A stretch of DNA of 64,000 nucleotides from a virus, in IMG/VR virus record IMGVR_UViG_3300017527_000515, positions 1 through 64,000 of that record. One strand, 5' to 3'. Made by a program: the position numbers and the translations under genes. Positions 18,690 to 42,500 of this stretch are shown piece after piece. Under the pieces are notes generated by a model. That model saw only the letters and a list, made by a program, of their open reading frames with translations, did no database searches and had not been told where the DNA came from. The first letter of the stretch is position 1; each line of letters opens with the position of its first letter.

Positions 18690-19147
18690 TAACGTCTCTC
18701 CTTACGAATGGTATATAACTCATTATCTCTACGTGTCATCTCACGTTTGAAAGCTGCTATAAGTTCTGATACTGATCTATCTATACCATCTACCCTTATC
18801 AACTCAGCCTGTAGCTTACGTAGTTTGTCATCCATTAATGACGACGATGCGTTGCCTCGTATAATGTATTCTCGGGCGGCCGTTTGAGTTTTGTATTCTT
18901 TTAATATCTTTTCATTCATACATGTAGACACAATGACATTCAAATCACTTTTAAGTTGGTTAATCTGAGCCTTGGTCTCGTTGACCTGAGATTTAAGATA
19001 TACTAACCACTGGCTTAGAGCTATAACATACTGACTTAATGTTGGGTCAGCTAACGCATGTAAATTTACCACATCAAATGCCCAAATCTCATCAATTAAG
19101 TCTTGTCTGGGCTGAACCTTAGTAAAAGATAATACACCTTCATCCAT
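18689..19147 (-). CDS. Hypothetical coiled-coil protein
   Basis: This 152-aa protein is mostly helical, with long heptad-like stretches (LKSQVNETKAQINQLKSDLN) and a basic C-terminus (FKREMTRRDNELYTIRKERR). It has no enzymatic motif. It sits immediately before the helicase gene (TAATG overlap), the position where phages often encode a helicase loader or accessory factor; that function is speculation. The ribosome site is weak (AGGGGG). The gene is credible because of polarity, overlap and length. Confidence 0.55.
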   Translation of the reverse strand: MDEGVLSFTKVQPRQDLIDEIWAFDVVNLHALADPTLSQYVIALSQWLVYLKSQVNETKAQINQLKSDLNVIVSTCMNEKILKEYKTQTAAREYIIRGNASSSLMDDKLRKLQAELIRVDGIDRSVSELIAAFKREMTRRDNELYTIRKERR

Positions 19148-19159
19148 TTGTCAATCCCC

Positions 19160-20868: not shown

Positions 20869-21475
20869 CTTCATCCTCCAGTCTTTTGCTGATAGCCAGT
20901 AGATCTTCCAGAGAATGCCCTGTTTTGTAGGTTTTCTCTATTCTTGCGGTCATTTTATCTACTGCCCTCTCAGTTCTTGTAGCCTCTTCCTTGGCCAACT
21001 CTTTGTTAATTATTTGAACTGCTCTCTCAGTAACCCAGGCCATATTTCCCTGGCCGAAGATACCAAACGATGGAGCAGAGTCAAACTTAAACACATCAGA
21101 GCGGTTGAATACAACTTTAACTATAAGACCACACTGCTTGAGTGCCGTCTTTCTATCTATACCGCCCGCCGCCATGCGATTCTCCACAAACGCCTTCGCT
21201 ATGGCTCTGTCCTGCTTTTTGTTTGGATATGACCACATTTGTTTTGGGTAGATGTTACGCATAAAACTATAGAATGTAGATATAAGCACATCTAAGCTCT
21301 CTATTTCAATAGGATATTCATATGGCGGGCCAACACTGTATCCTTGACCTTTTAAATAGGCAACGCACACCTTCTCCGCTTTGGTGGCAAGTGCGGCCTT
21401 GTTCCCAAACAAATCCCCCTGCTGAGATGAGACTATTAACCTCTGCATCTCACCCAAAAACTTGTCGAAATCCAT
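20846..21475 (-). CDS. Hypothetical protein between clamp and RecA
   Basis: This 209-aa basic protein has no recognisable domain. The N-terminal third is helical. The region QMWSYPNKKQDRAIAKAFVE suggests an alpha/beta fold with basic residues. The C-terminal third is a long charged helix ending in Lys/Glu-rich sequence (KRLEDEDGKKEEK). Because it lies between the sliding clamp and RecA with 1-bp and 23-bp overlaps, a replication or recombination-mediator role is plausible. GGAGAAGG precedes ATG 21475. Confidence 0.55.
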   Translation of the reverse strand: MDFDKFLGEMQRLIVSSQQGDLFGNKAALATKAEKVCVAYLKGQGYSVGPPYEYPIEIESLDVLISTFYSFMRNIYPKQMWSYPNKKQDRAIAKAFVENRMAAGGIDRKTALKQCGLIVKVVFNRSDVFKFDSAPSFGIFGQGNMAWVTERAVQIINKELAKEEATRTERAVDKMTARIEKTYKTGHSLEDLLAISKRLEDEDGKKEEK

Positions 21476-22608
21476 TACCTTCTCCTGATAGGAGTAATAA
21501 GCGCCTTCTGGTCTTCAAAGTTGCCAGAATCAAATATTAAAACACTGTCGTCGTCAGAGAATCTAATCGTAATCTTGTCGTCTTTGATAACCTCTACTGT
21601 CTGTATCATAGATTGACCATTAATATCAATCACGAAAGCTCCTGGGTAGTCCACAGCACCGTCGTAGGTAAATTCTGCCACATCACAGCTCAAAACCATC
21701 TCACCTTTAGACAGTGAGAATGTCAGCCTGTAGTTATCATCTGGGTTCAGAACGTCAACGAACGGAAGTAAGCTGCTCATTAGAACTTCCTTATCCAGCA
21801 CGATAGAACTCTCAAATGTGGACAAAATTGGCTTATACTCAGGAAAATCGTGCCCTATAATGGTACGGCCCCAGAAAACTACGTTATCGAAGGTGGCCTT
21901 AACATTACGATCTTCGAACTCAAACGCTACTTGGCTCTCCGAATCCACAACTCGGCGCAGTCCCATGATAAAATCATACCTAAGGAGGAACATTCCCTCA
22001 CTTAAATCACTGATATTCTTGACCTTATATTCTGACAGACGCTGTCCGTCAGTACCAACAAAACAAATCTCATCCTCTGCGAACACCACGTTCATACCAC
22101 GTAGAAATACCTGGTTGTGGCCTGGATCTATAGCATACAGCACTTTATTAGTGGCTGTTCTAAAGATGTTGGAGTTCAGCACGAAGTTGGGGTTGCCAAA
22201 CTTTTTAGGCTCACGCACCGTATAAACATCATACACCTTAAGCTTTAGATTTCCCTTGGAAACCTTGTCATTCTCGTAGGTATTCACTACAGATACGTTG
22301 AGGAAGTTGTTGGTGAGGTCAAAATGAAAATCCTTTACGCCGTATTTATCATTCCAGGCATGGAATGACGACACAAAGGACTTGATTTTACCGTATTCTA
22401 TTACGGCGGCGCCTGGAGTCCTAACCTCTGCTTTGTTAGAGGAGAAGGACAGCGCAGTGGAATTGTTGTTGGATAAGAATGTTATAACACCATCCTCTCC
22501 AGCGGTTATGAGAACCATTCCTGTTGAATCTAAGACGTTTACCTTGGCAGTAACGCTTAGAAGCTTGATGGCCTTCTGGAGGTCACCAGTCTCAATAGAA
22601 AAATCCAT
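21475..22608 (-). CDS. dnaN: DNA sliding clamp, DnaN-like
   Basis: This 377-aa protein is the length of bacterial beta clamp (about 370). Landmarks are an N-terminal clamp domain with a strand-helix pattern (GDLQKAIKLLSVTAKVN), a middle-domain signature FVGTDGQRLSEYKVK (bacterial DGHRL), a Pro-containing loop IIGHDFPEYKPIL (FPDY in bacteria), and a C-terminus ending KALITPIRRR, which parallels the VMPMRL end of DnaN. It encircles DNA and tethers the polymerase, which is not encoded here. This is the first gene after the tandem promoters, 52 bases downstream of the proximal -10 hexamer, and it has AAAGGA before ATG 22608. Confidence 0.9.
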   Translation of the reverse strand: MDFSIETGDLQKAIKLLSVTAKVNVLDSTGMVLITAGEDGVITFLSNNNSTALSFSSNKAEVRTPGAAVIEYGKIKSFVSSFHAWNDKYGVKDFHFDLTNNFLNVSVVNTYENDKVSKGNLKLKVYDVYTVREPKKFGNPNFVLNSNIFRTATNKVLYAIDPGHNQVFLRGMNVVFAEDEICFVGTDGQRLSEYKVKNISDLSEGMFLLRYDFIMGLRRVVDSESQVAFEFEDRNVKATFDNVVFWGRTIIGHDFPEYKPILSTFESSIVLDKEVLMSSLLPFVDVLNPDDNYRLTFSLSKGEMVLSCDVAEFTYDGAVDYPGAFVIDINGQSMIQTVEVIKDDKITIRFSDDDSVLIFDSGNFEDQKALITPIRRR

Positions 22609-22660: not shown

Positions 22661-22688
22661 AATATAATACATCTTTTTGATTTGTCAA
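22661..22688 (-). promoter_or_regulatory. Promoter P2 (proximal), sigma70-like
   Basis: On the minus strand the -35 is a perfect TTGACA (22683-22688), followed by a 16-bp spacer and TATATT (22661-22666). Transcription would begin near 22654 and read the sliding clamp gene and the following operon. The region directly upstream is AT-rich (UP-element-like). The hexamers and surrounding bases match promoter P1 closely. No competing Shine-Dalgarno or coding sequence lies in the region. Confidence 0.85.
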
Positions 22689-22689
22689 G

Positions 22690-22718
22690 GGAAAAATTAA
22701 CTTTTTTTTATTTTTTCC
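22690..22718. repeat. AT-rich inverted repeat between the tandem promoters
   Basis: An imperfect inverted repeat with two 11-base arms (GGAAAAATTAA at 22690-22700 and TTATTTTTTCC at 22708-22718) matches at 10 of 11 positions around a 7-base loop. It fills almost exactly the space between the -10 of P1 and the -35 of P2. It could be an operator, an AT-rich UP element for P2, or a weak transcript hairpin. It has no GC stem and so is a poor terminator. Confidence 0.55.
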
Positions 22719-22725
22719 TGTGAAT

Positions 22726-22753
22726 AATATAATACACAATCTGCATTTGTCAA
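22726..22753 (-). promoter_or_regulatory. Promoter P1 (distal), sigma70-like
   Basis: On the minus strand the -35 TTGACA (22748-22753) is followed by a 16-bp spacer and TATATT (22726-22731). The -35 starts one base after the stop codon of the 691-aa gene, leaving no room for a terminator. Over its length P1 matches P2 in two blocks (9 and 12 identical bases) separated by 8 divergent bases, with the same spacing. Initiation is expected near 22719. Confidence 0.82.
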
Positions 22754-22754
22754 G

Positions 22755-24830
22755 TTAAAATTCTAAATATCCTACTCCGTCGTCTGTGTATGCAATTATA
22801 ACATCGTAATCATGTGTTGCCTTTCCATTAATATAAGAGGTTAGATTATTATCCTCTGTAAAGTATCTTGTGGCTCCTATTCTAGCCGTTAGATCAGCGT
22901 CTCCGTCTGGGGCAACTGAATTGATGTAGGCACTTAGCTCTTTCGTAGGCGTTGTTGTAACGTACCATATAGCATAGCGCATGGCCTCATCTGTTGTGGC
23001 GAAATGACGCATGTCATATAAATATTTAACCTTGTGTAGCTTTCTATTAAGTATGCGGCTCCTGGTGGGTGAGTAATATGATGCAACTTTGGTTACAAAG
23101 TGGGTGTATTTGTCCACTTTGGCAACCACATCGCTGCCTGAGCTGTAGAAATAGTCCTTCACAATAGTCTGAAACGATATATCGACCTCCTCATAATCCT
23201 GGAGCACCTGTGTGTATGAAGTATCGAAGACCTTCTCTGAGCCCTTCCAACTTTCAAAGTCGTACGGTAATACATCACGAGCAACTATCGACGCAGTTAG
23301 ATCTACTGGTAGTGTATAACCAGTAATAGACGCTCCTAAACTTAAACCACTACGGAATACACTTATGTCAACATTAAACTTGTCTTCTGTCCTCCAACCC
23401 AAAGGTTCTATGTGGATATTTATATTAAGTTTGTCCGTTACTACTGTATCAGTTGCGTAACCAAAGGTAGCGCTAAGATTATTTTGGGCCCACACATACC
23501 CCTTAGGATAAATCTGGGCGGATAAATCTCTCTGATATACAGGACGTATGTAACTAGACAAATCTTTAAAATTAGAGTAAAAACATGGTATACTTATTGT
23601 CGCAGACAAATCACTGTGCTCCATGGTAACAACCCCTAAGATACCTGTCAAGCGTATTCTCTTTGGGTAAATTTCTGCAGTAAGATTACCGATGTCCTGG
23701 CCCGGATCAATATAGGCGGTAAGGTTTCTAGCCTGTTGGGCCCAGAGCTGTGCTGGTAAATCGGTAACACCTTGAGTTACTAGTATATAGGCACTCAAAT
23801 CCGTCGGCAGAGCTAGAAATCTCTTACCTTCAATAGACGCTGGTAAGTGTGTATATCCACCAGTAATATTAATAGATGCCGGTAAGTTCCATGGATAAGC
23901 GGTTGGATTTATAATACCACCTAAATCAGCTTCTTGCCAACCATGTATGAAAGCTGAGATATTTCTTGGTTGTACAGGAAATAAATACGCAGGCAGCTGA
24001 GCCATTTCTGTTGCTCTAATAAACGCTCCTAAATCTTCGAGTGCAAATGAATGCACAGCCGCTCCTAAATCATACGTCGCCTCACGTACCCATCCTTTAA
24101 TTAATGCACCTAGATTCCTCGGTCTATGACCACCTATAATAGCTCCTAGATTTCTAAATCCTATCATATTTATGTAGGCACTTAGATCAGCTTCTTGCCA
24201 ACCATGTATAAAACCAGGTAAGTCTTCTTGTGGCCACACCTTTAAATACGCCGACAGGTCTTCCGGTGGTATACCAAAGAGCGAGGCTGTTAAATTTTCC
24301 TCGTGTATAGATGTAATATATGCAGGCAGATCTCTAAAAGCAAAACCACGGATGTACGCAGTAATATTCTCCGGGTCATGCATATCTATGTAAGCGCTAA
24401 GATCTCTAGGTAAATGGGCACCTATCTCTGCCGACAAATCATCATCACCATGACGAATAAACGCTGCAATATATGCTGGCAGGTCAACTGCTACCAAACC
24501 ACCAATAGTGGCAGGCAGATTGACTGGATCATGTGCAGCAATTGTAGCACCTAAGTCTCTTATACCGCCGTAATGACACTTACCTTTGATCACTTGTACG
24601 CCGTGTTGGCTGTACCCAACTATGTATGTTTCACAATATTTTAAGAAGGTGAAGGTCTCATGTTGATACGTACGAATACCTTTAATGGCAGCACCAAAAC
24701 TAGCCATCTGTTGCTTGATTTTACCAGTATCAAAATTAGCACTGATGTTGTTGAAATCAGGTGACTGATAACCGCCAGTATTAAAACTAAATGGTATATT
24801 ATTTTTGGGTGGTGGAGTATATTCCGCCAT
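22755..24830 (-). CDS. Virion protein built from a 12-residue repeat
   Basis: This 691-aa protein begins with two YxPPxxN-type turns (EYTPPPKNNIPFSF, GYQSPDFNNISANF), shared with the gene at 26743-27090. From residue 92 a repeat of about 12 residues, [DN]-L-[SPGT]-A-x-[IL]-x6, runs almost unbroken to about residue 320 (for example DLSAYIDMHDPE, NITAYIRGFAFR, DLPAYITSIHEE) and continues irregularly to the C-terminus, some 30 copies in all. The L-x-A-x-I alternation suggests one short beta-strand per repeat and a solenoid or fibre. No known family is recognised. It is the last gene of the structural block and has a GGAG ribosome site; a tail or fibre role is inferred. Confidence 0.75.
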   Translation of the reverse strand: MAEYTPPPKNNIPFSFNTGGYQSPDFNNISANFDTGKIKQQMASFGAAIKGIRTYQHETFTFLKYCETYIVGYSQHGVQVIKGKCHYGGIRDLGATIAAHDPVNLPATIGGLVAVDLPAYIAAFIRHGDDDLSAEIGAHLPRDLSAYIDMHDPENITAYIRGFAFRDLPAYITSIHEENLTASLFGIPPEDLSAYLKVWPQEDLPGFIHGWQEADLSAYINMIGFRNLGAIIGGHRPRNLGALIKGWVREATYDLGAAVHSFALEDLGAFIRATEMAQLPAYLFPVQPRNISAFIHGWQEADLGGIINPTAYPWNLPASINITGGYTHLPASIEGKRFLALPTDLSAYILVTQGVTDLPAQLWAQQARNLTAYIDPGQDIGNLTAEIYPKRIRLTGILGVVTMEHSDLSATISIPCFYSNFKDLSSYIRPVYQRDLSAQIYPKGYVWAQNNLSATFGYATDTVVTDKLNINIHIEPLGWRTEDKFNVDISVFRSGLSLGASITGYTLPVDLTASIVARDVLPYDFESWKGSEKVFDTSYTQVLQDYEEVDISFQTIVKDYFYSSGSDVVAKVDKYTHFVTKVASYYSPTRSRILNRKLHKVKYLYDMRHFATTDEAMRYAIWYVTTTPTKELSAYINSVAPDGDADLTARIGATRYFTEDNNLTSYINGKATHDYDVIIAYTDDGVGYLEF
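23780..24557 (-). repeat. Protein-coding tandem array of 12-aa (36-bp) repeats
   Basis: This stretch encodes the most regular part of the dodecapeptide array, residues 92 to about 350 of the 691-aa protein, with about 20 copies. The protein pattern is well conserved but the DNA is strongly diverged between copies, so it is an old duplication rather than a recent slippage array. Occasional insertions of one to three residues occur (after REATY and TAYPW). Confidence 0.8.
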
Positions 24831-24839
24831 TCATATCTC

Positions 24840-26732
24840 CTATGGTGTTATCCAATCATAAGTTATAGCATTTGTTCCGCTAGCTGTATAAAGTGCTGTT
24901 ATATAATGCTCCTCATCGTACGGTGTGTCTATTGTAAATAGCCCGCCGCTATGGGTAGTGTCAGAGCCTGCCAATTCACCTGTTGATCTTCGATATAGCC
25001 TGACTGGTATACCATCTGTCAATAAAGCATCTACAGTTACAGTACCCGACGCTGTAAAAACAGGTTTGAATTCTGCAGATATAACCATCAGGTTATCAAA
25101 TGTTGTATAATAAGTGGCCTTCATCCAGGATTCTGACCTAATAATATTTGAATATCGAGCCTCAATTAGAGGACCTGTATGGTAAGTAGCAGAACCAGTA
25201 AAGATATTTCCCGTTCCTATTTCAAGATTTTGATTAGAATCTGTTATCCCATTTAACGCGCCCGAGCCGCCATTAGAAACTACACTGATATTTTCTAACC
25301 AATCATTAACTACAACAGTCGGTGATGATCCGTCGCCGATATATGAAAATCCAATATAGTAGTAGTCAGCTGTGTTGAATGCTGTATTACCAGCAACGCC
25401 TGTGTAATCACTGCCGGTCTTTTTAAACCCCAAAAACATATTAGTATCAGATCTTATTTTAAATCCCCAACCTTTGGAATTTCCAGAGTCTGTTTTTGCA
25501 AATATAGCATCAGACGCAGGACTTGTAGTCTTAAACACACATTCGGCGGTAAGGTTAGATGTTAGTTGTAAACTAGAATCATTACCACATTGTACGTATT
25601 CATTTACACCATCAGTATTTATACCTATAAACTTACCTTCATTTATAGAATCTGAATTTTCCATATTTACAGATGTACCATGATTGCCCGTATCAGTGGA
25701 ATCTTTTAGGCTAGATGCTGTATTATCCGGCACACCGGCCAAGTGCCAAACACCAACATAGTTATCATCCCAAACTTCCATCGCTGGGGCAGTGCCTGTG
25801 TCGCCTACCCATAGGTCATTATCTAAATGATTTTTATCATAGTAAAGGTATAACGTGGTATCTGTACCACTGACTATAGTGGGAACTTTTGTCCATAAAT
25901 TAGCCAACTCCTCATGAAAATTAAATTTTTCTATTTCTACATATAATTGATTAGTTCCTGTGTAATCAGTAACAGCTATTCTTTTATCATACCCAGCAAT
26001 TAATATATCAGTAAGTACCACATCATCAAAACCAGAGCTATTAGAGTTGCGCGTCAAGAATGACACGTGACCTTGCGTTGGGAAAGCTACAACATGTTCC
26101 CCTATATAATCCCATAGTTCAGGCTCAACCTCCCCTTGATACCAATGTTTAAAATATAAAACATTACCTGTTTTGCGAGCCCGGACATAAAACCAACCGG
26201 CACTAGCATTATAGTTGTATTTACTACTGCTTACTGGCTGGGTATTTACTCCTGATATACGGAAACCGAAACGGAATCTATTTATAGAACTATATCTTTG
26301 GAGATGCACATAAAAATAATCGTTAGTTGCTGGTGTGTCAGAATTCCAATAAAGCAAACAATCAGAATTACCACTGTTACTACTGCCTTGATATAGTCTA
26401 AAAGTCATTTCCCAATCAGTAACGCTATAAGTACCACTAGTAGATACTACCCCGTCATTATATATCCTCATATAACCAGCAGGATCTACATTTAAAGTGC
26501 CAGATTCAGCATACCAACCTTCGCCGTTACTTCCTGTAAAATCATCTTCGAATATTACACCACTACCCGTAGTGTAAATAAGTTCATCAAAAACTATACC
26601 AGCATTGAAATTATTACGGCCGGAGCCAGACGTCAATGTCAAACTCACAGGAAAATCAGTTAGATCTTCGTCTACTCTCTCATGATCTATTGTGTATTTT
26701 AACCTATTATCCCAACCAGCTAACCAGGCCAT
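24840..26732 (-). CDS. DUF2341 plus LamG-like virion protein
   Basis: This 630-aa protein has an N-terminal DUF2341-like domain: RLKYTIDHERVDEDLTDFPV at residues 11-30, then KRIAVTDYTGTNQLYVEIEK and TTLYLYYDKNHLDN. A concanavalin/LamG sandwich follows (about 320-545) with VGVWHLAGVPDNTASSLKDS, the sequence ADFDG-like FIGINTDGVNEYVQCGNDSS and a final NLEIGTGN block. Residues from about 556 form a carboxypeptidase-regulatory-like module (IPVRLYRRSTGELAGSDTTH) shared with two other genes. LamG and DUF2341 modules bind glycans or proteins. It is likely a tail or surface adhesin. AAGGAG precedes ATG 26732. Confidence 0.82.
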   Translation of the reverse strand: MAWLAGWDNRLKYTIDHERVDEDLTDFPVSLTLTSGSGRNNFNAGIVFDELIYTTGSGVIFEDDFTGSNGEGWYAESGTLNVDPAGYMRIYNDGVVSTSGTYSVTDWEMTFRLYQGSSNSGNSDCLLYWNSDTPATNDYFYVHLQRYSSINRFRFGFRISGVNTQPVSSSKYNYNASAGWFYVRARKTGNVLYFKHWYQGEVEPELWDYIGEHVVAFPTQGHVSFLTRNSNSSGFDDVVLTDILIAGYDKRIAVTDYTGTNQLYVEIEKFNFHEELANLWTKVPTIVSGTDTTLYLYYDKNHLDNDLWVGDTGTAPAMEVWDDNYVGVWHLAGVPDNTASSLKDSTDTGNHGTSVNMENSDSINEGKFIGINTDGVNEYVQCGNDSSLQLTSNLTAECVFKTTSPASDAIFAKTDSGNSKGWGFKIRSDTNMFLGFKKTGSDYTGVAGNTAFNTADYYYIGFSYIGDGSSPTVVVNDWLENISVVSNGGSGALNGITDSNQNLEIGTGNIFTGSATYHTGPLIEARYSNIIRSESWMKATYYTTFDNLMVISAEFKPVFTASGTVTVDALLTDGIPVRLYRRSTGELAGSDTTHSGGLFTIDTPYDEEHYITALYTASGTNAITYDWITP

Positions 26733-26742
26733 ATTATTCTCC

Positions 26743-27090
26743 TTATGGTGTGTCTACATTCAAATCTCTTGTGTCGTTATTAGTCAGAGTCTCCTCTGCG
26801 CGGCCGCCATAATTCTGAGTATAGTGGTCGTATAATCTTTTATCATCTAAATTTAAAACGCTCAGTGCTGTGCCAGGTCCCCAAGACATGGTATATACCT
26901 TACCGTTTGTTAGGCTGGCGTCGGGGTCAGCCCAGATACCTGTAAATATATTAGAGAAACCTGCCAGTACATAATATACAGATAGAGCGAAGTCCATGTC
27001 AGCTTGGTTACCTTCAGGCGGACTGTACCCGGCTATATCAAAATTAATATTTGCGTTGTTTGCCTCTGGTGGGCTATATGCTTCCGCCAT
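26743..27090 (-). CDS. Small structural protein with YxPPxxN turns
   Basis: This 115-aa protein starts at ATG 27090, nine bases after GGGGAG; the open frame continues upstream only within the overlapping larger gene. It begins with two copies of a turn motif (AYSPPEANNANINFDIAGYS and PPEGNQADMDF) also found at the start of the 691-aa protein. It then has FTGIWADPDASLTNGKVY plus a beta-propeller-like strand, a module that recurs at the C-terminus of the 1176-aa protein. It probably joins a fibre assembly as a small connector. Function otherwise unknown. Confidence 0.55.
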   Translation of the reverse strand: MAEAYSPPEANNANINFDIAGYSPPEGNQADMDFALSVYYVLAGFSNIFTGIWADPDASLTNGKVYTMSWGPGTALSVLNLDDKRLYDHYTQNYGGRAEETLTNNDTRDLNVDTP

Positions 27091-30000
27091 CGTATCCATC
27101 TCCCCATACAGTGTCTTGTGTAATTGGATATGGGTCCATTTTACCAAGCACTAAGTGATTGTAGTCCACTGGTAGATCATCGTCCTGACATACTATATAA
27201 TGAGTACCACTATAAGAAGTTTCTAATCTATAATAGCCAGTACCACTGGCTGACACCGTGTAGTCCACGCGCTCATTAGTGTCTGCTCTAAAACATGCTA
27301 CTGGTCTAGATATAGGCACGTCTCTCTCAGTAATAGTACCTTCGAAATAATGAGTCTTATACTCAGGCCACTCTATCCATTGAAACCAATTCCAACTAGA
27401 ATTACCGCCATTATAGTTTGTTATGGTGGCTGTATTACTATCAGTTAGTACTACCTTATGACAGCTGGCATTGCTATCATTAGCGCCTGTACCATCGGCG
27501 CTGCCTTGGCTACTTACCATCGACATGCAAGCTACAGATCTGTCCATATTCCAATAATGACCTATAGACCCTTTAGTTTCTGATGTTACACCGCTGGATA
27601 AATCAGTCCAATAACCGCCATTTCTTATACCGTAAGCGGGGTTAAACTGTATAACTTCACAAGCGCGGCGATATAAAGCATCAGCACTGCTAGATTTGTT
27701 CCATTGTATTCCGTGGTCTTGTCTTGGGTATAATCTATAGTTTGCTCTGTCTGTATAATAGTTGTCTGTAGTAGGAGTATAGGAGCCAATTAGAAATCTA
27801 ACATGTTGTCCCCAACCACCACTAAAGTTAGCGTAGTCATAAAAATTAGTGTTACTGCCCGCGCTAGTATCATTAACGACGTGAGATACATACCATTGGT
27901 CTTGTAAACATTCTACTATATAAATACTTACCATGACAGCGTTAGCGCTGTTTTCTCTTTGGAAATGTAAAGTAGAAGAATCGGTAAACTTACCCCTAAC
28001 CTTATTTCTACTCTGGTAAGCCCCCCAGTCATCAGAAACCATGTGGAATTGCATAAATGTTTTAGTTAGGTCTACCGCCTCAGGTATATTTACTGCGGCA
28101 CTGGTACCAGTAAACACATATTCAATTCTCTGAATTTTTACTTGTCGCGGGTCAAACTCTACTATGTATACAGACTCGTCTGTGGTACCGCCACTACCTG
28201 CGGCCTCAGCACTACCTATCACAGCACTATTCACAGTGTCCATGTGCCACTTTCTCTGTAAATAAACCTGGTAGCCATTACTGGCGCCTGCTCGCCAACT
28301 AGCGAACGGCACACAATTATCAGCGTTCATACCATTGGGTAGATAGTTATATCTGACTGAACCTGTGGTGCCTTCAATATGATGTATATTTCTGACTAGA
28401 GAATTAGTAGGGTTACTAGTATTTACCAATGAATTAAATTTCTCATCAGCGTCTGGATGAGCATAACCAATCCAATCTATTAATCCGCCATATGAAGGAT
28501 TTAAGTTCGTTCCGGCAGGCGTATCTCTAGAACATTCCACCTGGGTATTACTAGTTACTAATCTATAGACATGAAAAGCACCGCGGAAATCATTAGAACC
28601 GGTGCCATCGGTGCGACCAACATTATTTAAACTTGCATTAAAAACAGTCCAGGCATCTTCATTTCCTAAGTGTCTAGTAGGTATAGTTCCAGTTTCTTGC
28701 GACTCTCCGGTGTCAAGAGTAGGAGCGTATAGATATAAATGCCGTCTGTTATCTAGAAACGTAATAACTTGAACATGTGAATACATTGTGTCAGCATTAG
28801 TAATACGATTGGTGAATACTCTATGACCACTAGGAGTATGACCAACCCTGGCAGTTGCTCTATCTGTGTAATAGTTATCTGTCGAAACAGCATATGATCC
28901 TAGTTCAAATCTAGAATAATAAGACCCCCATGAAGGCGTGTACACATTTCTATAAGTAGTTACATTCCCTGTATTATGATATACGTCTATCCAATTCCCA
29001 GTTAGATCCTCTACTACCCAGTAAACACCGTGAACTGAATTTCCAGCATCATTTCTATAGAATTCCACCTGGTCGCCGCTTGACACAAATCTAGATCTAA
29101 TAGAACTTCTACTGAACCAAGTCCCTTCATTTTGTTCCCAGTTATTTAGTATGAATGCTTTAGAAGTATCAACCCCACTAGCCAACGTCATAGTTTCTGT
29201 TGTGCTGCCCCAATTTGTAAACTCCCCGTATTCCACTTTAACCTGGTCTGGATAGAATTCCACCACACTTATGTCCACATAAGCATCCCCTGTAGCATCT
29301 GTTCTATGGGTTATTGCAACTCCTGGCTCTCTCAGCCAGGTTACACATTTATGTTCTCGTATCTGACTACAGCCCTCACCACGAGATGCTGCGAATACCG
29401 CACAGTTAGATATGTCCTGCCCTTTAGTTAGATCGTAGTAGTCCCAATAAGTATAATTATATATTCTAAAAGTCTCTACTGATTTAACTGGTGTTATGTC
29501 TGGGTCAAGTGGGGAGGGATTGGTTCCTGTGTTAATCACTATACCGCCCCAATCTATTACAGTTGCACCTTCGTAACTAGTATTACCACCGCCGTCTGAA
29601 TTTCTTTGCCTCTGTGCTTGGGTGGTGCTGTTGAACTTGTGTGACACCCACAAAGAATCTATCTGAGTAGTAGCGGTGGTCGTACCTCGTGCCACATGGC
29701 CGTTTGTGACTATCATGGCCTTGTTTAAATTGACTGGTCGATTAAAATTCCAAACACCTGTAGTGACTCCAGAGGCACCTAAGCTTAACTCCCTTTGATC
29801 TGATATATATACCTTACTATCGTCATTAAAGGTTATAAGTTGCCATGATGGGTATATAGTTCCGGTGGAATTGATTCTATCACATCGCCAAAAAGTTTTA
29901 AAGTAGGACCAAACTCTTACTGTACTACGGTCACAATAATAACCGTCGTCAGTAGGGGCCCAGGAAAATATAACCCAGGTCTTGGTGGGGTCATTTCGGT

Positions 30001-32352: not shown

Positions 32353-35300
32353 TTAAGCTCCTGTATAAATATAATCTGGTAAAGTAAAACTATCTGTTCT
32401 TACATATACTCCATCGGGAGTAGCGCTGCCGAAGTATATCAATATAGTACCGTCATCATTTACTAAGACTGGTTTTGAATTTACATTAGCAGAATTAGCA
32501 GATGATTGTCGGGCTACGTGGTGCCCACCATAGGTACTATCAGTACGATAATATAGATCTTGATTATCATTACTATTATTAATTAAAAAAGTAGCAGCAG
32601 CTTGGCATTTCCACCCTGGAGGAACAACCAGTGTAGTAGAAGTCTCCGAATCAGATGGATTTTGCCAACCGTTAGGGTTGGCTGCTGATCTCCACACCAC
32701 CTCTCCGGCAAAAAGGTCAAAGATAAGTACCTCTGAAGAGTCAGTACTGTAGATAACCCCTATACATCTATCGTCTCCATCATAGTACCCCATGTTTGGG
32801 TAATCTATTGTAGGTATACCTGAAGATGCTGTGAAATTAGAACTATCTAATGTGGATGTAGAACCAGATACATTAGTGTATACATAGTACCATGTATCTG
32901 TTGCTAGTCCAGAAACAGTGACTTCAGTTCTATCATTCAATTCGTACATACCATAGTAACTATCTTTCATGTGTATAGTTCCTGGGTTTATGTATATACC
33001 ACTTGTTGTTGCGTACTCTACCTGTAAGGATTGCTTTCCTTTATCAACTGGTATGTCTGTTATATCTCTCCAGCGATAAACTTTTATAGTACAAGATACG
33101 GCATTAGCTACTGCTATATCTATTGACGTTACGTTATCTTCAGTATTAGACCAATAACCAGCAAAGGTACTTGTTATTCTGTCTGTGTTAGCAGAATCAT
33201 ACACAGTATCTTGGCAATTAACAAATCTTGGGCCTCCTGATTTTAAATACACATCAGTGGTAGCAAATATCTGCCTTGTAGCTAGTGGAGTTCCTAAGCA
33301 GTATCTAAAATCACTGCCAGAAAGCACTGACCCTCCGTCAGCAGAAGAACCATGTTGTGTAATGAGTCCCACACTGTAATTAGAACCTGAATCATTATTT
33401 AATCTAAAAGTAGTGTCAGGGGCCACTGTAGTCATCTTTGTCCACGATGATTCTATCTTTGCTCGCGGCCAATTATCACCATCCCATGGAATAGACTCAC
33501 TGAATGTTTCGTTATCAGCTTCGATAGTTGCCACTAGTACCCAGTTTCCTTCCGCAGGCGGAGCCTCAGTATAACTACCACTTATTTTAGCGATAGCACC
33601 TGTGTTGCCGGAAAGATCTGTGGGGCCAGCAACACCAGTAACCGCCGAACCATCAGAAGCATACGCAAGGAATTCTACATAATCACCGGCATTTAAGTAT
33701 TCTGTGCAGGCATGTGCTCTGGCATCATTGGAACCTTGGCCAGAAATTCTATTAAAATCTAATATTTTAGTGCCATTTACCTGCCACTTAGTTCTTACAC
33801 TAGTGGGGGCAGAACTAGTATTAAATCCTGCGGTAAATACGTACCAACCATCAGACGGAGCAGTTAGTCTAGTTGGGTTACTTACATCCCAATAACCTTC
33901 ATCGTCTCGCAGTGTGGTATCCCAACTTAAAGGTGTGTAAACACCATCAGGTAACGACTGAGTAGTGCTTCTATAAACCCTAGCACCAGATGTACCCAGC
34001 CCTCCAGCGGCCGCGCTAACGAAATCTATACCAGAGCCAGTAGAAACCAACAGTTGCCCTGTTTCACCATAATCATCTGGGGTATCAGTTAAACCAGAGA
34101 ATGTTGTTGGAGATTCAGGTAATTCCTCCCACACAATTCCAGAGCCAGTAGATATTAAGTGTTGATTTTCTGTGCCAGAATACGTTACTGGGGTATCGTT
34201 CAGATCCAAAAAGCTCTCTACATAACTAGGAAATAGTTTGAACTCTAAGGCTGTAGCCGCATCATTTGCTCCTAAATAACCACTAAAGGGAACTTCTGTG
34301 ACTTCATATGTACATAAAGTATTTCTCAGAGAAAAATTAGTAGCTTTTATCCAAGCATCTGTTCTAGCTATCTTAGATATTCTAATGTTATCAACAACGC
34401 CATCAAAGCCATTGGCTGAGTTGCTGTATTCACCACCAATAACAATGGTGTGGGTGTTAACCTCAAAGTTCGTTTCTCCAGAAGCATTGGTTGTGTGACT
34501 GCCGTTGTGGAAACCTTTCATGGCGCCGCTATTCTGGGTCAGGGCTGAATAATAGTAAACATCTTCTGGAACATAAGCATTTGATATGTTTATGCTGTGT
34601 GATGTAGAAGATGGGTGGTAAGTACCACCTAATAAATTATCGGTAGATCCAGTAGCACCTGCACCTGTTTGGAAAAAATAATCAAAAGCTGGGTTAGCAC
34701 CACCGCGCACTACTATTTTTTGGTATCCATCTATAGAAAAATCATCTGGTTTATGTAGTGCTTCTAGAGTAAGTTGTGTGGTTAGATTTTGAGAACTTGT
34801 ATACGGAATATTAATCTCATCGTCGCCGCCATCAAAATCTATACCCTTACCAACCAAGCCATTTACTAAATCCCCGCCACCCATACCACCAGCCGGAGTA
34901 CCGTGGTTGTGATTAGAGGTACTATCTTTTATGCATAAAGAGCCGCCAGCAGGAGACTGTGCCATATTATATACAGCTATGAAATCACTATCCCAAACTG
35001 CTTCAGCCGGTGTGCTATTCACATCCCCAACGTAGGTGGTGTTGTCTGGCAAGTCTGCACTATAAACCAGCCTTAATACCGTATCTTCTACGGAAGATAT
35101 ACTAGGAACTTTAGTATGAAGAACAGCTTTATTACTTCCTTCTTCCCACAATTCTATTTCTGTATAACATTGCTGGCTAGCTTCTGTTAGTATCTGAAAC
35201 TTTTTAGAGTTAGCGCCGAGCTCCGTAAAAACTAAAGAACTATTTAGTACTACTGTTAAAGGAAAATTGGTCAGAGTAGAATCTATTTTAGTATGATCTA

Positions 35301-38300
35301 TGGTTATTACTACTTGCTTTACTACGTCTGGATAAACTGAAGGAGTATCAGTTAGTCCCAAAAATGTTGAACTTCCTGACGCCGTACTGACTGGCGCATC
35401 GTTGACTAGTAAATCATTACCATCAGCCGAAAGTTTTAAATCTCCTATGTACACTGTTCCGCTGGAAGTATAAATATCATTACAATGAATGTCTCCAGTA
35501 CCTGATATAGTACCCGTGCCGAAGTTCCATGGCACATAGTCACTAAGATCCCCGCCTCCTCCTCCTGTATTTTCAGCCATCTGAATAACTGACATTCTGG
35601 CTGGGTGTGTCGCAAATTGTGCTGTTTCTGTCGAACCTTTTTCCTGTCTAACATACGTATCTATATAATCACCAGCAACACAATCCACCAAAGTTGTTAT
35701 TTGTAGACTCTCTACTGATGTAGCAGCAGCTACTCTTTTACCGACCGTTTGGATGGGCACACCGTTTTTGCGGATTGCAATAGTAATAATATCCTGGTCG
35801 CCCATAAGAGTCAAACGTTCGGCAGTAGAGGTAACTAGATACTTACCGTCTTGTTTGGCAGTAACCCTGTTGTTAACTGTATCTGCTATATCACCCACAT
35901 TAAGGTCTACCCCGTTAAAAGGTACCTTATACCATACACCACTATCCATAGAAATACCAGAGTTGCAGGTCATCTTAGCCATGTGTAATGACGCACCCTG
36001 GTCTACACTGGCGTATTCGACCAGCTGTACAACGGAAATGGTTGGTGGTTCTGGCGTCACAACCTCTTGAGCAGAGCCTGTGTTTTGCCACATATGTAGT
36101 TCTAATTCGTCGCCCTCATTCAAATCTAACACGGTGTTTAATTCTACTGGAGCATATCCACCGCCGCCGGAAGCTTCCCATATGTCAAGAGCTACAGAAG
36201 TACCATTTACAAATAAATATAGCCAAGATTCCTTCTGGTCGGTAAATATAGCGCCATAACGATGTTTTAAATTTATATAGTATTTACCATCTCTTTGTAT
36301 GAAAACAGAACCGCTTGTAGTATTAGCCATACCACCGGCATCAAATTCTATAGTGTCTAAAGGTATCTTAGTGTCTGCTCCCCCAGTAGGTAAGCTGAAT
36401 GAAGCCTGTCGGCTCATCTTTGTCATATGCATTATAGTACCACTAGGTACTACGTCTACAAATTCTACACCCGATGCTGTAGTTTGAAGGTATTTACCTA
36501 CCTCACCGGCGTATGAAGTGGGAGTATCATCTAGATCTAAGAACGTTTGAACATCTGATGTACCACCTCCCCCACCTTCAGAGCTGGTAAATTCAGCCAG
36601 TCTCACCACTGACATTTTAGGTTCCCACGATCCAGTGTTTGTGTCACGATCACTACCGTGATTATGATAGATATAATATTCTAAATAATCATCTTTTTGT
36701 AAATCAAGAATATCAACTATCGTAGGGGTGTTATTATTAATATGAGCAGCGCCAGCGCCCGGACTACCATTGACATATATATAAGTTAGTAAATCTCCAG
36801 AAAGACCATCCAGATTACATTTACCAGTGACTAGGTATTTTCCCGCAGTCTTAATAACAAACTTACTGTTATTAATATCTCCTATGTCGCCCATATTATA
36901 TTCTAGAGTATCAAAATCTACTTTTTGTACGGCACCACTGGATATACTTTGCGCACCGGCTCTCGACATACTGGCCATGTCTGATGATATACCAGAAGCT
37001 ACTGGTAATTGTAGATTAACACGTTTATACAACCTAAATGTACCAGTTAGATCTGTGTTGTCTGTCCATAGTCTGAAAGATGTAATTTTATCTGATGTAT
37101 TATCCCAAAAAAAACCCTGATTTGATGACCACCATTTGTCAGTATCATCACTTCTTTGAGCTGATCTGTTATTAAGAATTACCCGCTTCTGGCCAGTATT
37201 TTTTAGATACCATGTAGTTTTTTCAGTTTCTACATAATCATAAGAGTTGGTCAAGTAGAAAAAGGTCGAGCCAGGAGATGTATTTGATACAGGGACGGCA
37301 CCATCCTGTGTAACATAACCAACATCATAATTAGCGCCACTATCGTTATTGAATCTTAATTTAACATTAGATCCACCTGGAATCTCGGCGTTTATAACTT
37401 CGAATATTACCACATCATCTACATCACCGTCCCATGTAAAGGTTTGGTCGATGCCGCCCGAAATTAAAGTCCACTCTTGTACCAGCTCATTAACATAAAT
37501 ATTAGTATCTATATAATCAGGTTCATATATAGGTAGAGATACATTTGTTCTTTTGTATATTTTAACATATCCTGTAATATCATCAGTAGTACTTAAAGTA
37601 AAAGATTCTACCTCATCTGCAGTATTATCCCATATACCAGTCAGTAATACATTATTATGATCAGCCTCATCAACCTCGTATCTCCATTGCTGTGATGCGG
37701 ATACTCTTTTTTTGCCGGACTTTAGAAATAAATTATTTACAGAAGCAACATAACCGTTAAGGACAGTATTTGCCACTGACATATATGTATACGGATCTTC
37801 CGCTCCACCTGACGCGCCATTAGATATTTGCCCTAACCAAGACATAGAATAATTTGTTGAAGTATCATTATTAAATCTTAAATAAGTAGCAGAACCTCCC
37901 GTACCAGTTGCCTGATACTGACACTCTATTACCCATCTATCATCGGTATTTCCTTGTATACCAGACAAAGTAACATTTAAAGTTTCATCATTAGCACTAT
38001 ACTCAGCCACCAGTTCCAGGGCCTCATAATCCGTACCTACAGAGTTTATATTATGTGCCGAAAAATCTATACCCGAACCAGTGGACACCAGTACCTTGCC
38101 TATAGTGTCAATATAGTCATTTGGGGTGTCGTTGTGGTCTGTAAATGCTTCAGCGCCAGGTGCCTCTCCGCCGGAAGCAGTAGTTGGCATATATAACAAG
38201 TCCCACTCTGCGCTGCTAAGCTCCATCATCTCTATTTCACTTAGATGAACCTCTGCTCCGCCAGAGTTGATGGCAGTAATGAATACTCTATAGTATAAGA

Positions 38301-39489
38301 AATCCTCATCATTGGTGAATTCATACTCTTTCCAAACGCTTTCTGGCCATTGGGGCTCACCAGTCACAGTAAAGAATGTAGTTTCTTCACCCGCGAAAGC
38401 GCCTGTGTTTGATCCTCTGAATGAAAAATCCCTTGGGCTTTTAATATCATTTGCTGGATGCATTCTAATCTTTTGTATCTGCTTCTGTGCTGCAAACTGA
38501 TACCCTATCCACACGGGATATGTGGGTGAATTTCCAGTAGACCAACGACTAGTATAAGAAGTATTGTTATCAAATGCTTTAGAAGGAGTATAACTAAGGG
38601 CATACTCACTGCCTTGCGGCGTGCCCCCAGTACATTCATCAGAACCATATGTAAGTATAGTTTTGGCAAATATACTACCTGATATAGTATCTAGATAATA
38701 ATTATTTGGATCGCCCAATGCTCCTGATGGAGTACCTTCACCATTAAGCCAGAGTGTTCCAGCAGGAACCTCCACCCATTTGGTACCGTTAGCTTTAGAA
38801 TATAGGAATTTACCCTCATCATAAGTAGGTGGTGTGTCTGTTAACTCTAACAGCGTAGTGGCTTTAGTGTCCACATAGGATACAGTGGCCATCTCAGTAC
38901 CAGCCACAAATAGATTACCATTAACAGCAGTGAGTTCTACTTCTCCTATATATACTGTACCACTGGCTGTGTATATATCATTACAGTAGATGTCTCCCGT
39001 GCCAGAGATCGTTCCACTCCCAAAATCCCACGGCACGAAGTTATCGTAAGCAGCATGTGTGTGGTCATCAGTACCAGATACGGGTACAAATGCAAACTCA
39101 ACGCCGGATGCTGTAGCGCTGACCATCACAAATTGACCCTCTGATCCTGAGTACGTGGTTGGAGTATCAGTTAAGTTTATAAACTCAGACACTCCGGCCG
39201 CTATTATAGTACCACCACTGCCCTCTGACCCGTCATGATCGTGATCTGGTAGACTGCCGGTGGGGCCTTGAGTTATAACACTATACCAGGCATCTGTTAA
39301 AGAAGCGGTCAGTCCTGACTCATCTATTATTACTGTTGTATAAGGTGAGGAATAAGTTGACGACACGATAGTGGCGTACTTTACCCCGTCCAAACCACAA
39401 TCCAGCTTAACTCGTCTAGTCACAATAAAGTTAGTTGTCTCATTGCCTATGACTTTGAAGCTGTTAGCACTTACATAAATAGCATCCAT
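32353..39489 (-). CDS. Giant modular tail fibre protein
   Basis: This 2378-aa protein is a mosaic of modules. Seven copies of an FLxLxDTPxxY...STGSGIxF linker lie near residues 101, 215, 449, 980, 1375, 1758 and 1795. A discoidin-like F5/8C domain lies near 282-428. Three copies of a LRFNNDSGxNYxVG beta module lie near 485-650, 665-830 and 1980-2140. Four C1q/TNF-like domains lie near 840-968, 1020-1160, 1170-1305 and 1833-1976. A DUF2341 plus LamG pair lies near 1380-1740. A repeated ISGTGDIYCNDIYTASGTVY block also occurs twice. DTP linkers are known from phage tail fibres. It probably forms a long, flexible adhesive fibre. AAGGGAG precedes ATG 39489. Confidence 0.85.
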   Translation of the reverse strand: MDAIYVSANSFKVIGNETTNFIVTRRVKLDCGLDGVKYATIVSSTYSSPYTTVIIDESGLTASLTDAWYSVITQGPTGSLPDHDHDGSEGSGGTIIAAGVSEFINLTDTPTTYSGSEGQFVMVSATASGVEFAFVPVSGTDDHTHAAYDNFVPWDFGSGTISGTGDIYCNDIYTASGTVYIGEVELTAVNGNLFVAGTEMATVSYVDTKATTLLELTDTPPTYDEGKFLYSKANGTKWVEVPAGTLWLNGEGTPSGALGDPNNYYLDTISGSIFAKTILTYGSDECTGGTPQGSEYALSYTPSKAFDNNTSYTSRWSTGNSPTYPVWIGYQFAAQKQIQKIRMHPANDIKSPRDFSFRGSNTGAFAGEETTFFTVTGEPQWPESVWKEYEFTNDEDFLYYRVFITAINSGGAEVHLSEIEMMELSSAEWDLLYMPTTASGGEAPGAEAFTDHNDTPNDYIDTIGKVLVSTGSGIDFSAHNINSVGTDYEALELVAEYSANDETLNVTLSGIQGNTDDRWVIECQYQATGTGGSATYLRFNNDTSTNYSMSWLGQISNGASGGAEDPYTYMSVANTVLNGYVASVNNLFLKSGKKRVSASQQWRYEVDEADHNNVLLTGIWDNTADEVESFTLSTTDDITGYVKIYKRTNVSLPIYEPDYIDTNIYVNELVQEWTLISGGIDQTFTWDGDVDDVVIFEVINAEIPGGSNVKLRFNNDSGANYDVGYVTQDGAVPVSNTSPGSTFFYLTNSYDYVETEKTTWYLKNTGQKRVILNNRSAQRSDDTDKWWSSNQGFFWDNTSDKITSFRLWTDNTDLTGTFRLYKRVNLQLPVASGISSDMASMSRAGAQSISSGAVQKVDFDTLEYNMGDIGDINNSKFVIKTAGKYLVTGKCNLDGLSGDLLTYIYVNGSPGAGAAHINNNTPTIVDILDLQKDDYLEYYIYHNHGSDRDTNTGSWEPKMSVVRLAEFTSSEGGGGGTSDVQTFLDLDDTPTSYAGEVGKYLQTTASGVEFVDVVPSGTIMHMTKMSRQASFSLPTGGADTKIPLDTIEFDAGGMANTTSGSVFIQRDGKYYINLKHRYGAIFTDQKESWLYLFVNGTSVALDIWEASGGGGYAPVELNTVLDLNEGDELELHMWQNTGSAQEVVTPEPPTISVVQLVEYASVDQGASLHMAKMTCNSGISMDSGVWYKVPFNGVDLNVGDIADTVNNRVTAKQDGKYLVTSTAERLTLMGDQDIITIAIRKNGVPIQTVGKRVAAATSVESLQITTLVDCVAGDYIDTYVRQEKGSTETAQFATHPARMSVIQMAENTGGGGGDLSDYVPWNFGTGTISGTGDIHCNDIYTSSGTVYIGDLKLSADGNDLLVNDAPVSTASGSSTFLGLTDTPSVYPDVVKQVVITIDHTKIDSTLTNFPLTVVLNSSLVFTELGANSKKFQILTEASQQCYTEIELWEEGSNKAVLHTKVPSISSVEDTVLRLVYSADLPDNTTYVGDVNSTPAEAVWDSDFIAVYNMAQSPAGGSLCIKDSTSNHNHGTPAGGMGGGDLVNGLVGKGIDFDGGDDEINIPYTSSQNLTTQLTLEALHKPDDFSIDGYQKIVVRGGANPAFDYFFQTGAGATGSTDNLLGGTYHPSSTSHSINISNAYVPEDVYYYSALTQNSGAMKGFHNGSHTTNASGETNFEVNTHTIVIGGEYSNSANGFDGVVDNIRISKIARTDAWIKATNFSLRNTLCTYEVTEVPFSGYLGANDAATALEFKLFPSYVESFLDLNDTPVTYSGTENQHLISTGSGIVWEELPESPTTFSGLTDTPDDYGETGQLLVSTGSGIDFVSAAAGGLGTSGARVYRSTTQSLPDGVYTPLSWDTTLRDDEGYWDVSNPTRLTAPSDGWYVFTAGFNTSSAPTSVRTKWQVNGTKILDFNRISGQGSNDARAHACTEYLNAGDYVEFLAYASDGSAVTGVAGPTDLSGNTGAIAKISGSYTEAPPAEGNWVLVATIEADNETFSESIPWDGDNWPRAKIESSWTKMTTVAPDTTFRLNNDSGSNYSVGLITQHGSSADGGSVLSGSDFRYCLGTPLATRQIFATTDVYLKSGGPRFVNCQDTVYDSANTDRITSTFAGYWSNTEDNVTSIDIAVANAVSCTIKVYRWRDITDIPVDKGKQSLQVEYATTSGIYINPGTIHMKDSYYGMYELNDRTEVTVSGLATDTWYYVYTNVSGSTSTLDSSNFTASSGIPTIDYPNMGYYDGDDRCIGVIYSTDSSEVLIFDLFAGEVVWRSAANPNGWQNPSDSETSTTLVVPPGWKCQAAATFLINNSNDNQDLYYRTDSTYGGHHVARQSSANSANVNSKPVLVNDDGTILIYFGSATPDGVYVRTDSFTLPDYIYTGA

Positions 39490-39500
39490 ACTTAACTCCC

Positions 39501-42500
39501 TTATAATCTTATGTTAAAATCGTCTACTGCTCCTGACAGTGTGGCATAATGAATTAGCTTGTCGAATTCTACAGTACTAAATTTGTCATTAGTAAAATAT
39601 ACAGTGCCGCTGCTTAAAGTAGAAGTTGGGTCGGCCCATATATTATTTATGTAGTTAGTATCTCCATCTAACACTCTCACGTTATAAGCTTCTTCTGAGC
39701 GCTCCACCATCTCCCATTCTGACATCTTAATCTTATCGTCAGCAGCGCGCCAATTATCAACACAGGTTAATTTGTATTGATAATATGACTTAAAATTATC
39801 AAACGAATATCTGCTCCACCTACCATAAGCGTAGTCTGTAAATGGAGTTGGTGTATCAGTGCTAGGCAATAATAAGTCCCAAGTATAGCCGTTGTTACTA
39901 GCACTTAAGGACACCTGCTTCGGGTAATAATATTCATTATCTGTAAAAGTCACTGGACGTAATCTTAGTTGGGATATCACTCTCTTACCCATTATAGGAT
40001 CACGTTCGTATAACTCCCATTCTTGTATGGCTATGTTGCCGCCATGTGTATTCAGAACATCTAATATATAATATTTGTAGTATGTAAGACCTGTACTAAA
40101 ATAGAAAACCTGCTCCTGCTCATTAGGTAAAGCTTCGCCTTCATATAGTAAAACTTTCTCATCCCAACCACTAAATCTAGGATTGTACTGAGAACCATAG
40201 AATTTGAAATCCTTGGCCATTCTACTAGTCGAGCCGGGGACAGCACGTATGGCGAGACATGCTATATCCTTAGTGGTATCAAACTTTATAGCTGCCCAAC
40301 CAGATGTGGTAGTAGTCTGCCAATAGTCTCTGTCGTGCACATCAGCATCATGGTCCGATAATTTAGACGCATTATAGAAATATACACTATTGGAACTATT
40401 ATAGTGTCTGTGATCAACACTGTTTATTGAATTCTCAGTTCTGCCAAAATCTATAGTTATATTACCTGTAGTAACAGAATCATCACTTATAAATACTGTG
40501 GATGGACTGCCAGTAGCATTATCCGACATTCTATACGGGTCCCCGCCCATGTCTGATAGGTGATGGAAATCCACATTCGTAACATCCGGGCCATAACTAC
40601 GACCGTCTAGCGGTTGGTGCCCAATATACTCATGATCTATATATAAATTGCTGGTATTTACTAATAGTTCTTTAGAGGGATCAAAGTCCCTTACTATCAC
40701 CCAATCTATTGCAACACCATTAGCTGAGCTCTGGTCTTCTCCGTATATTCTGAAGTTACTTACCTCTGTATTTCTATGTACCTTACGTTCCCAGCTGTCA
40801 TCATAATCAAATTCGCTTGAGTAGTGAGTTATTTTATACATTTCTACTTCTGGTAAATATGGGCTGCCGCCACTGGGGTATACTATTCTCCAATATAGAT
40901 ATGGAACGGTGTTATCAAAATTTATAATCCACTCATCTACAGCCGATGCTCCACTGCCGGGTACTACAATTATAAGATCCCATACCTTATCATCCCAGCC
41001 CGCTGCTGGATCATTTGAAGCCTCTATTTGATGATCATATATAGGCTGATTGCTCATATAAATTGTGATTCTGGTTATAGGTTGTGCTTCATCGAAATAA
41101 TACCCCCACCACATAGGTGCCTCAGAGCCTCCTATCCACTGTGTAGCAGGATCGCCGTCCACAGCCCGATAGGGTTTCCAATACTCAGGATGCCCTGTGT
41201 TATAGGATAACGCTGTAGCATGGCTGCTCTCTGTAGCCAAATCATCACTATATTGAGGAGTTGCCTCGCCACCTCGGTTAGTCATTCCCTGATAACAACG
41301 GTCGGTGCCTTCGTAATAACCAAAATATGTTTGGTTGTAACTATTTTCAATCAGGCCTTTATTGGTGCCGGGATAAGTTATATACGAACCGGCGTTAACA
41401 AAATCATGATATCTGTCAGTAGCGCCCTCCCAATAATAGTTAATACCCATTACATTTTCGCCGCCATAGCATCTGTATCTATGTGCTGCCACTGATGTAG
41501 AGGTGGGAGATCCTATTCCCCTAATGCCGTCTTCTATTATAAAAGTTCCTGGTTCAGTTAATGTCAAAACATCATCTGCAAAAACTTTAATCTCAGACAC
41601 TCTAATATTACTGCTTGTAGGAGCAAAACCAAACTTACCATTAAATCTAAAATAACGAGCTGTTAGGCCGGGAGCATCTAACACTAAGTCGATGTACCAG
41701 ACATAATCTTGTGCTCTCTGTAAAGGCATCTCCTGGTAAGAAAAGGTATATATAGCTGTCCAAGTACTATTATCATTGGACCAATACGGAGTACACCATG
41801 AAGTGTCATTCCAATATAAGTCTTGCGTTATATGCTCGCTATAGTTCCACCAATATACTCTTAATCTTTTAATGTTGGCTACTTCAGAACCCATATCCAC
41901 ACCCAGGTCGCAGCCTGGAGAAGATATATAAGAGTACGATGTGGTGCCTGAAGTTACTACACCGTCGATTAAACCAAGCTCGTTACCTCCCCAGCCACTA
42001 AAGCCGAGGTAGCAATTACCAGTATGCTGGTGGCTGCCCCAAAACGCATCTATAGGTCTTAATTCATATTCAAAGTTCAGCCAGCTGGATGACTGACCGC
42101 CTAAAACATCTGGTGATCTTATCCAGGCATCAGTCCCTAGGTTTATTTCAGAACTACTTATACTCCAACTACCACCATTTGAGGGCCACTTATTTACATC
42201 TAACGAGCCGCCCAGGAAATCATCTCCGAACCTAAACACTGGAGTAGAAACACTCTCAGCTTCATTGACAGCCATTAACGCTATTTTTTCTACTCTCCAA
42301 TAGACCTGTCCTTTGTCATTTACTATACGATACTTGGAGTACGAATTATCATTACCAAAGTAATACTCCCTATCGTAATGATATATATTATCTGTAATAT
42401 CTACTATTAAAACATCTTCACTGACAAAGTTGTCGTTGGACGCTCTTAACTCAAACCCAGCACCGTAGTAGCCAGAACCATCTCCCCTAGCCACCAGCTT

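Follow-up and report, generated by a model that had tools for sequence, protein, structure and literature searches.

The window, by which we mean the whole stretch of 64,000 nucleotides analysed here, is part of a virus record of 115,457 bases and encodes on its minus strand (22755-24830) a protein of 691 amino acids with some 30 copies of a 12-residue repeat. What does a phage build from such a repeat, and for what purpose?

The repeat and its divergence

The open reading frame starts with ATG and is preceded by AGGAG (ribosome-binding site). The pattern [DNHAQ][LI][SPGTA][AGS]x[IVLF] matches the protein 32 times, as compared with a mean of 0.63 and a maximum of 4 matches in shuffled versions (n = 2000), and the consensus of the motif is [DN]-L-x-A-x-[IL]-x-[GAP]. 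Between residues 91 and 480 the self-identity is 0.196 at a lag of 12 residues and about 0.03-0.10 at most other lags. A trained matrix of nine positions finds 33 units in the protein and 1023 units across 32 homologues versus about 27 in shuffled sequence. Family-wide, position 1 is D or N (89%), position 2 L (91%), position 4 A, G or S (97%), position 6 I, L or V (96%) and position 8 G, A or P (64%; with 34% Gly the most Gly-rich position), positions 3, 5 (often Y or S) and 7 being free, and four weakly constrained positions end the unit. The layout is thus a strand with L, A and I at alternate positions, and after it a loop rich in turns. Cys is almost absent from the protein.

A first-pass annotation, made from the letters alone, had described a 12-residue repeat in about 30 copies, which these counts bear out, and its three example units are present as quoted at residues 143, 155 and 167. 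The regular spacing that it reported is found exactly in 17 of the 32 intervals, whereas the others are mostly of 13-16 residues; the larger breaks measure 48, 25, 62 and 121 residues, and inserted elements occupy most of them. Correct was also its statement that the DNA copies are strongly diverged: the pairwise mean identity between units is 0.42 in DNA and 0.31 in amino acids, and many codons are in use for the conserved Leu, Ala and Ile. The protein pattern is conserved and the DNA is not, in agreement with the selection on the protein that had been supposed.

Layout of the array

The elements of the protein, all encoded on the minus strand, are given here from the N-terminus onwards. Residues 1-36 (24723-24830) form an N-terminal "PP" tag (YTPPP..IPFSF..GGYQSPDF), which most homologues have; in L002 and L003 the tag belongs to the coding sequence that precedes the repeat gene. 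The first unit is separated from the main array by a β-hairpin element (residues 56-91; 24558-24665) of the pattern [YF]xxGYxxxxxQxxxGxxxYxGxRDL, of which the L043/L082 lineage has several copies. The main array (residues 92-462; 23445-24557) consists of about 28 [DN]LxAxIxG units at a spacing of 12 with extra residues at fixed places. It is followed by an insert of about 34 residues with DKLxIxIxI / EDKFxVxIS strands (residues 463-496; 23343-23444), two further units (residues 497-521; 23268-23342), a C-terminal domain of about 109 residues with the motifs YFYxSGxxxVxKxDR ... DEAxRxxIxxV (residues 522-630; 22941-23267) and, past this domain, the final three units (residues 631-673; 22812-22940). 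The C-terminal domain is kept in all homologue groups and matched no known family. In L060 and L058 its counterpart (about residues 535-591) gave weak matches (4.5e-5 and 0.0017, respectively) to phrog_6745, labelled endolysin, which could hint at a shared accessory domain.

Homologues and database searches

Searches with DNA patterns that span two or three units, and afterwards with peptide patterns, gave about 31 distinct homologues, all of them on uncultured viral contigs no longer than 296 kb. Four groups can be told apart, A (that of the window protein), B, C and D, and in all ten viral records tested (92-296 kb) there is one copy per phage. Across 32 homologues the modal spacing is 12 residues (409 intervals) versus 14 (87 intervals); L041 is very regular, with 12 exact units in a row. 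A profile of 24 members from which group C was left out (A7) still matches group C (6.7e-68 in one record, a value of the kind that repeats inflate). The group C members L045, L075, L076 and L079 have about 1230 residues and carry, C-terminal of the repeats, two Laminin_G_3 stretches (6.9e-33, 3.3e-26, 5.3e-30 and 1.2e-19, respectively). L066 and L068, short repeat proteins of 444 amino acids found with a group B query, are without the hairpin region; the clamp and RecA encoded with them are closer to group A, and recombination between structural and replication blocks is possible.

The first-pass annotation did not recognise the repeat as a known family, and neither did the databases: it was unmatched in Pfam, PHROG and the PDB sequences, whether the protein was used alone, as profile or as consensus array. 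In 50,697 phage records tblastn found no match for the window protein or three divergent homologues, the family profile gave no credible match in 395 + 399 cellular genomes of two phyla (a search without positive control there), and the motif strings were not found printed in the literature searched. Matches of hmmsearch and phmmer to nanobody, MopR, isomerase and dehydrogenase chains all had E > 0.05 and were disregarded. Pattern matches in bacterial genomes were rejected as relatives, being low-complexity NI/DI/IP arrays. Also rejected was a 1006-amino-acid protein from a Treponema metagenome-assembled genome (L033) with near-identical DLSADISIDDSV 12-mers, which is like the phage repeat in period and motif, is very homogeneous and probably arose by convergence.

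An old array that changes by single units

At the variable positions, units of the same rank in the window protein and in L002 are 0.53 identical, non-orthologous units 0.11; for more distant homologues the values are 0.13-0.32 versus 0.09-0.12. The additions of 1-4 residues recur at the same places in distant homologues, and the spacing 13-25-16-12, then 13 and about 111-127, of the C-terminal half is shared by groups A and B and partly by C and D. Orthologous units thus resemble each other far more than non-orthologous units do, the units of different phages correspond one to one, and churning of the array is refuted. The array is therefore old and ordered and did not arise by a recent expansion.

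The same comparison bears on the view that the repeat arose by chance or is of low complexity and without structural meaning, a view which could point to the pattern scans, since these also match NI/DI repeats in bacteria. We hold it to be barely conceivable: the DNA copies are diverged and use mixed codons, and unit orthology across proteins that are 30-65% identical refutes it.

Between two fixed landmarks the homologues have 20, 21, 22, 23 or 24 units, and therefore units are gained and lost singly. As read from these counts, the evolutionary step is one unit rather than a pair or a triple.

Gene neighbourhood

The repeat gene is the last of a tail/adhesin gene block. Upstream of it are F5/8 type C genes (45909-54644 and 39501-43031), a C1q/BclA-like and Laminin_G_3 gene (32353-39489) and DUF2341 genes (39501-43031 and 24840-26732), and tail-protein PHROG matches are found among the genes before it. 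The DUF2341 gene at 24840-26732 (minus strand) immediately precedes the repeat gene, at a distance of 9 bp. Directly past the stop of the repeat gene there is a sigma-70-like promoter (22724-22753, minus strand; TTGACA-N16/18-TATATT/TATTAT, 11/12), which likely starts the next transcription unit, and a second, near-identical one in tandem (22661-22688, minus strand; TTGACA-N16-TATATT, 11/12) lies upstream of the clamp gene. Strong TTGACAAAT...TATTATATT promoter-like sequences thus stand in tandem at 22661-22753 (minus strand) and occur again at 19126-19154 (minus strand). Promoter-like sequences fill the same gap in most relatives inspected; these are apparently early promoters of the phage lineage.

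Past the promoters come a DNA polymerase sliding-clamp-like gene (21475-22608, minus strand), which is the first of the replication/recombination block and a constant neighbour of the repeat gene, a small open reading frame, RecA and a DnaB-like helicase. RecA is found downstream in 33 of 34 loci, the exception being a locus that ends early, and, a near-identical contig aside, is 40-88% identical.

With moderate confidence we read the repeat protein as a virion protein of the host-facing tail apparatus, either a fibre shaft or an adhesin scaffold: of the tail/adhesin apparatus because its gene closes the tail/adhesin block, follows an adhesin gene so closely and has the promoters past it, and host-facing because in group C lectin-like Laminin_G_3 domains are fused past the repeats. 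That clamp and RecA genes adjoin the repeat gene throughout the family would suit a non-virion protein of the replication block (with clamp, RecA, DnaB-like helicase and primase). We consider this very improbable, because the strong promoter-like sequences separate the clamp gene from the repeat gene, because the adhesin gene is only 9 bp away and because of the lectin-domain fusions. The repeat protein could also be a structural protein of the tail or baseplate (belt, tube decoration or collar), in which the repeats would form an extended β-ribbon attached to other proteins and no free fibre. That its gene is last in the structural block is compatible with this, and the fixed order of the units together with the inserted domains suggests fixed partners along its length; the C-terminal lectin fusions of group C and the many adhesin genes nearby speak for an exposed part that faces the host, and we regard the ribbon reading as unlikely.

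A protein of 463 amino acids encoded by L046 (8822-10213; about 69.3-70.7 kb of the genome) has a C-terminal Big_1 Ig-like domain and may be the major tail tube or a different protein of the tail.

How the repeat may fold

The first-pass annotation had supposed one short strand per repeat, with which the alternation L2-A4-I6 is in accord, and had taken the whole for a thin solenoid or fibre. A virion fibre or adhesin fits the gene context; a confident solenoid did not appear in the models, which neither confirm nor refute one. AlphaFold2 put strands on many units of the monomer and packed them nowhere with confidence, the pLDDT being 28 with 3 sequences and 34 with 24 diverse sequences; the best-predicted part is the hairpin element (about 60-71). 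Register-shifted repeat rows, meant to deepen the alignment, were returned by MAFFT to the original register. No clear lag for the stacking period emerged from the unit-to-unit residue similarity. A lag-4 signal at unit position 9 probably reflects a few conserved W units. No trimerisation domain was identified in the array.

Single-chain solenoids are usually predicted well by AlphaFold2. The low pLDDT of the monomer may reflect chains that need intertwining in order to fold; a shallow alignment can also explain it, and so can a novel fold of the monomer. The gain and loss of single units agree somewhat better with an oligomer in which each unit is a layer than with coils that comprise two or three units. 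Because of these single-unit changes, the failed monomer prediction and the lack of a lag-2 signal, we favour an intertwined homo-oligomer, probably trimeric, over a single-chain solenoid.

The single-chain solenoid would be a β-roll with two units per 24-residue coil, its strands alternating between two sheets, so that one chain alone is the rod, as in principle in the curli and RTX rolls; the protein would still belong to the tail/adhesin apparatus. Two rounds of a 6-residue strand and a 6-residue loop make a plausible coil of 24 residues around an L/A/I core, and in much of the array the low-confidence models assign roughly one strand to each unit. In such a roll the gain or loss of a single unit (20-24 between the landmarks) would move every unit behind it onto the opposite sheet, the similarity of the units has no lag-2 preference, and AlphaFold2 gave no confident roll with 24 homologues. 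We therefore rate the roll as rather unlikely.

For the intertwined oligomer we propose that each unit forms one layer, with a strand (residues 2-6) whose L2, A4 and I6 would face the core, a loop (residues 7-12) that is at least 6 residues long and tolerates 1-4 extra ones, and the D/N of position 1 forming a ladder through the stack. The layers would follow each other along the axis, most probably in three intertwined chains, and with a rise of 4.8 Å for each layer 33 of them would make a rod of about 15-16 nm. The hairpin near the N-terminus and the domain of about 109 residues near the C-terminus would both be seated on the rod.

Comparison with known β-structures

Pentapeptide repeats have the form A[DN]LxG and the period 5. 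They share with the phage repeat [DN]L followed by small residues, but the latter has no Pfam match and no lag-5 signal, nor one at lag 6. To pentapeptide, hexapeptide (LβH) and leucine-rich repeat solenoids, whose periods are 5, 6 and 20-29 residues, respectively, there was no Pfam match with the protein, its homologues or the consensus array. The antifreeze protein of Tenebrio molitor is a β-helix with the same 12-residue period, but its coils are rich in Cys and Thr and have disulphides, whereas the phage protein would have a core of Leu, Ala and Ile. The triple β-spiral repeat is a two-strand unit of roughly 15 residues; the phage unit has 12 and one conserved hydrophobic strand.

The adenovirus fibre shaft, a triple β-spiral, is a trimeric rod of intertwined β-repeats with a receptor-binding head (PMC8869412). 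The triple-stranded β-helix of the T4 gp5 spike is a trimeric phage tail protein with a short β repeat, one position of which carries an N/D ladder (PMC4576200); its repeat is the octapeptide VxGxxxxx, whereas the phage array has no 8-residue periodicity (self-identity 0.055 at lag 8 versus 0.196 at lag 12). In the left-handed parallel β-roll of YadA-type trimeric autotransporter adhesins three chains share a core, normally of Ile/Val, with one short repeat per layer, N/D hydrogen-bond ladders and a rise of 4.8 Å (PMC9543794). The short layer repeat, the N/D ladder and the adhesin role are the points of likeness, the layering of the phage protein being our proposal. The YadA-type layer differs in having 14 residues with an invariant Gly at position 8, where the phage unit has 12 residues and only 34% Gly; the Pfam head-repeat (YadA-like) models did not match at E up to 1, or 0.1 in a further search, and no autotransporter anchor was seen in the phage protein. 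By analogy the phage repeat would work most like these trimeric β-layer rods, but it should not be assigned to any of them, since it departs from each in repeat length and sequence.

What the array may be used for

We rate the finding as a new repeat family with a known kind of job. The protein probably is an elongated shaft or scaffold in the part of the tail that touches the host, with a shape unseen in solved structures. More specifically, and tentatively, it may be an undescribed, probably trimeric β-roll or β-helix made of 12-residue [DN]LxAxIxG layers, which serves as the tail shaft of a wide and wholly uncultured range of large phages and bears interchangeable lectin tips and domains inserted between its layers. 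A repeat family that the databases do not list, and that many divergent large phages have kept, likely represents a new structural solution to the building of phage fibres. Its structure, once solved, would provide a new modular β-scaffold of adjustable length, to which single 12-residue layers are naturally added and from which they are removed, and the family would mark an uncultured lineage of phages. Owing to its regularity, L041 offers a direct way to test the fold.

The PP tag at the N-terminus may act as a docking element. A tag of the form YxPPxxxxIxFxFxxGGYxxPxxxxxFxF is also found at 26743-27147 (minus strand) of the window, at 6854-7228 of L002 and at the N-terminus of many homologues. 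This short tag moves between neighbouring virion genes and may be a docking element shared within the tail.
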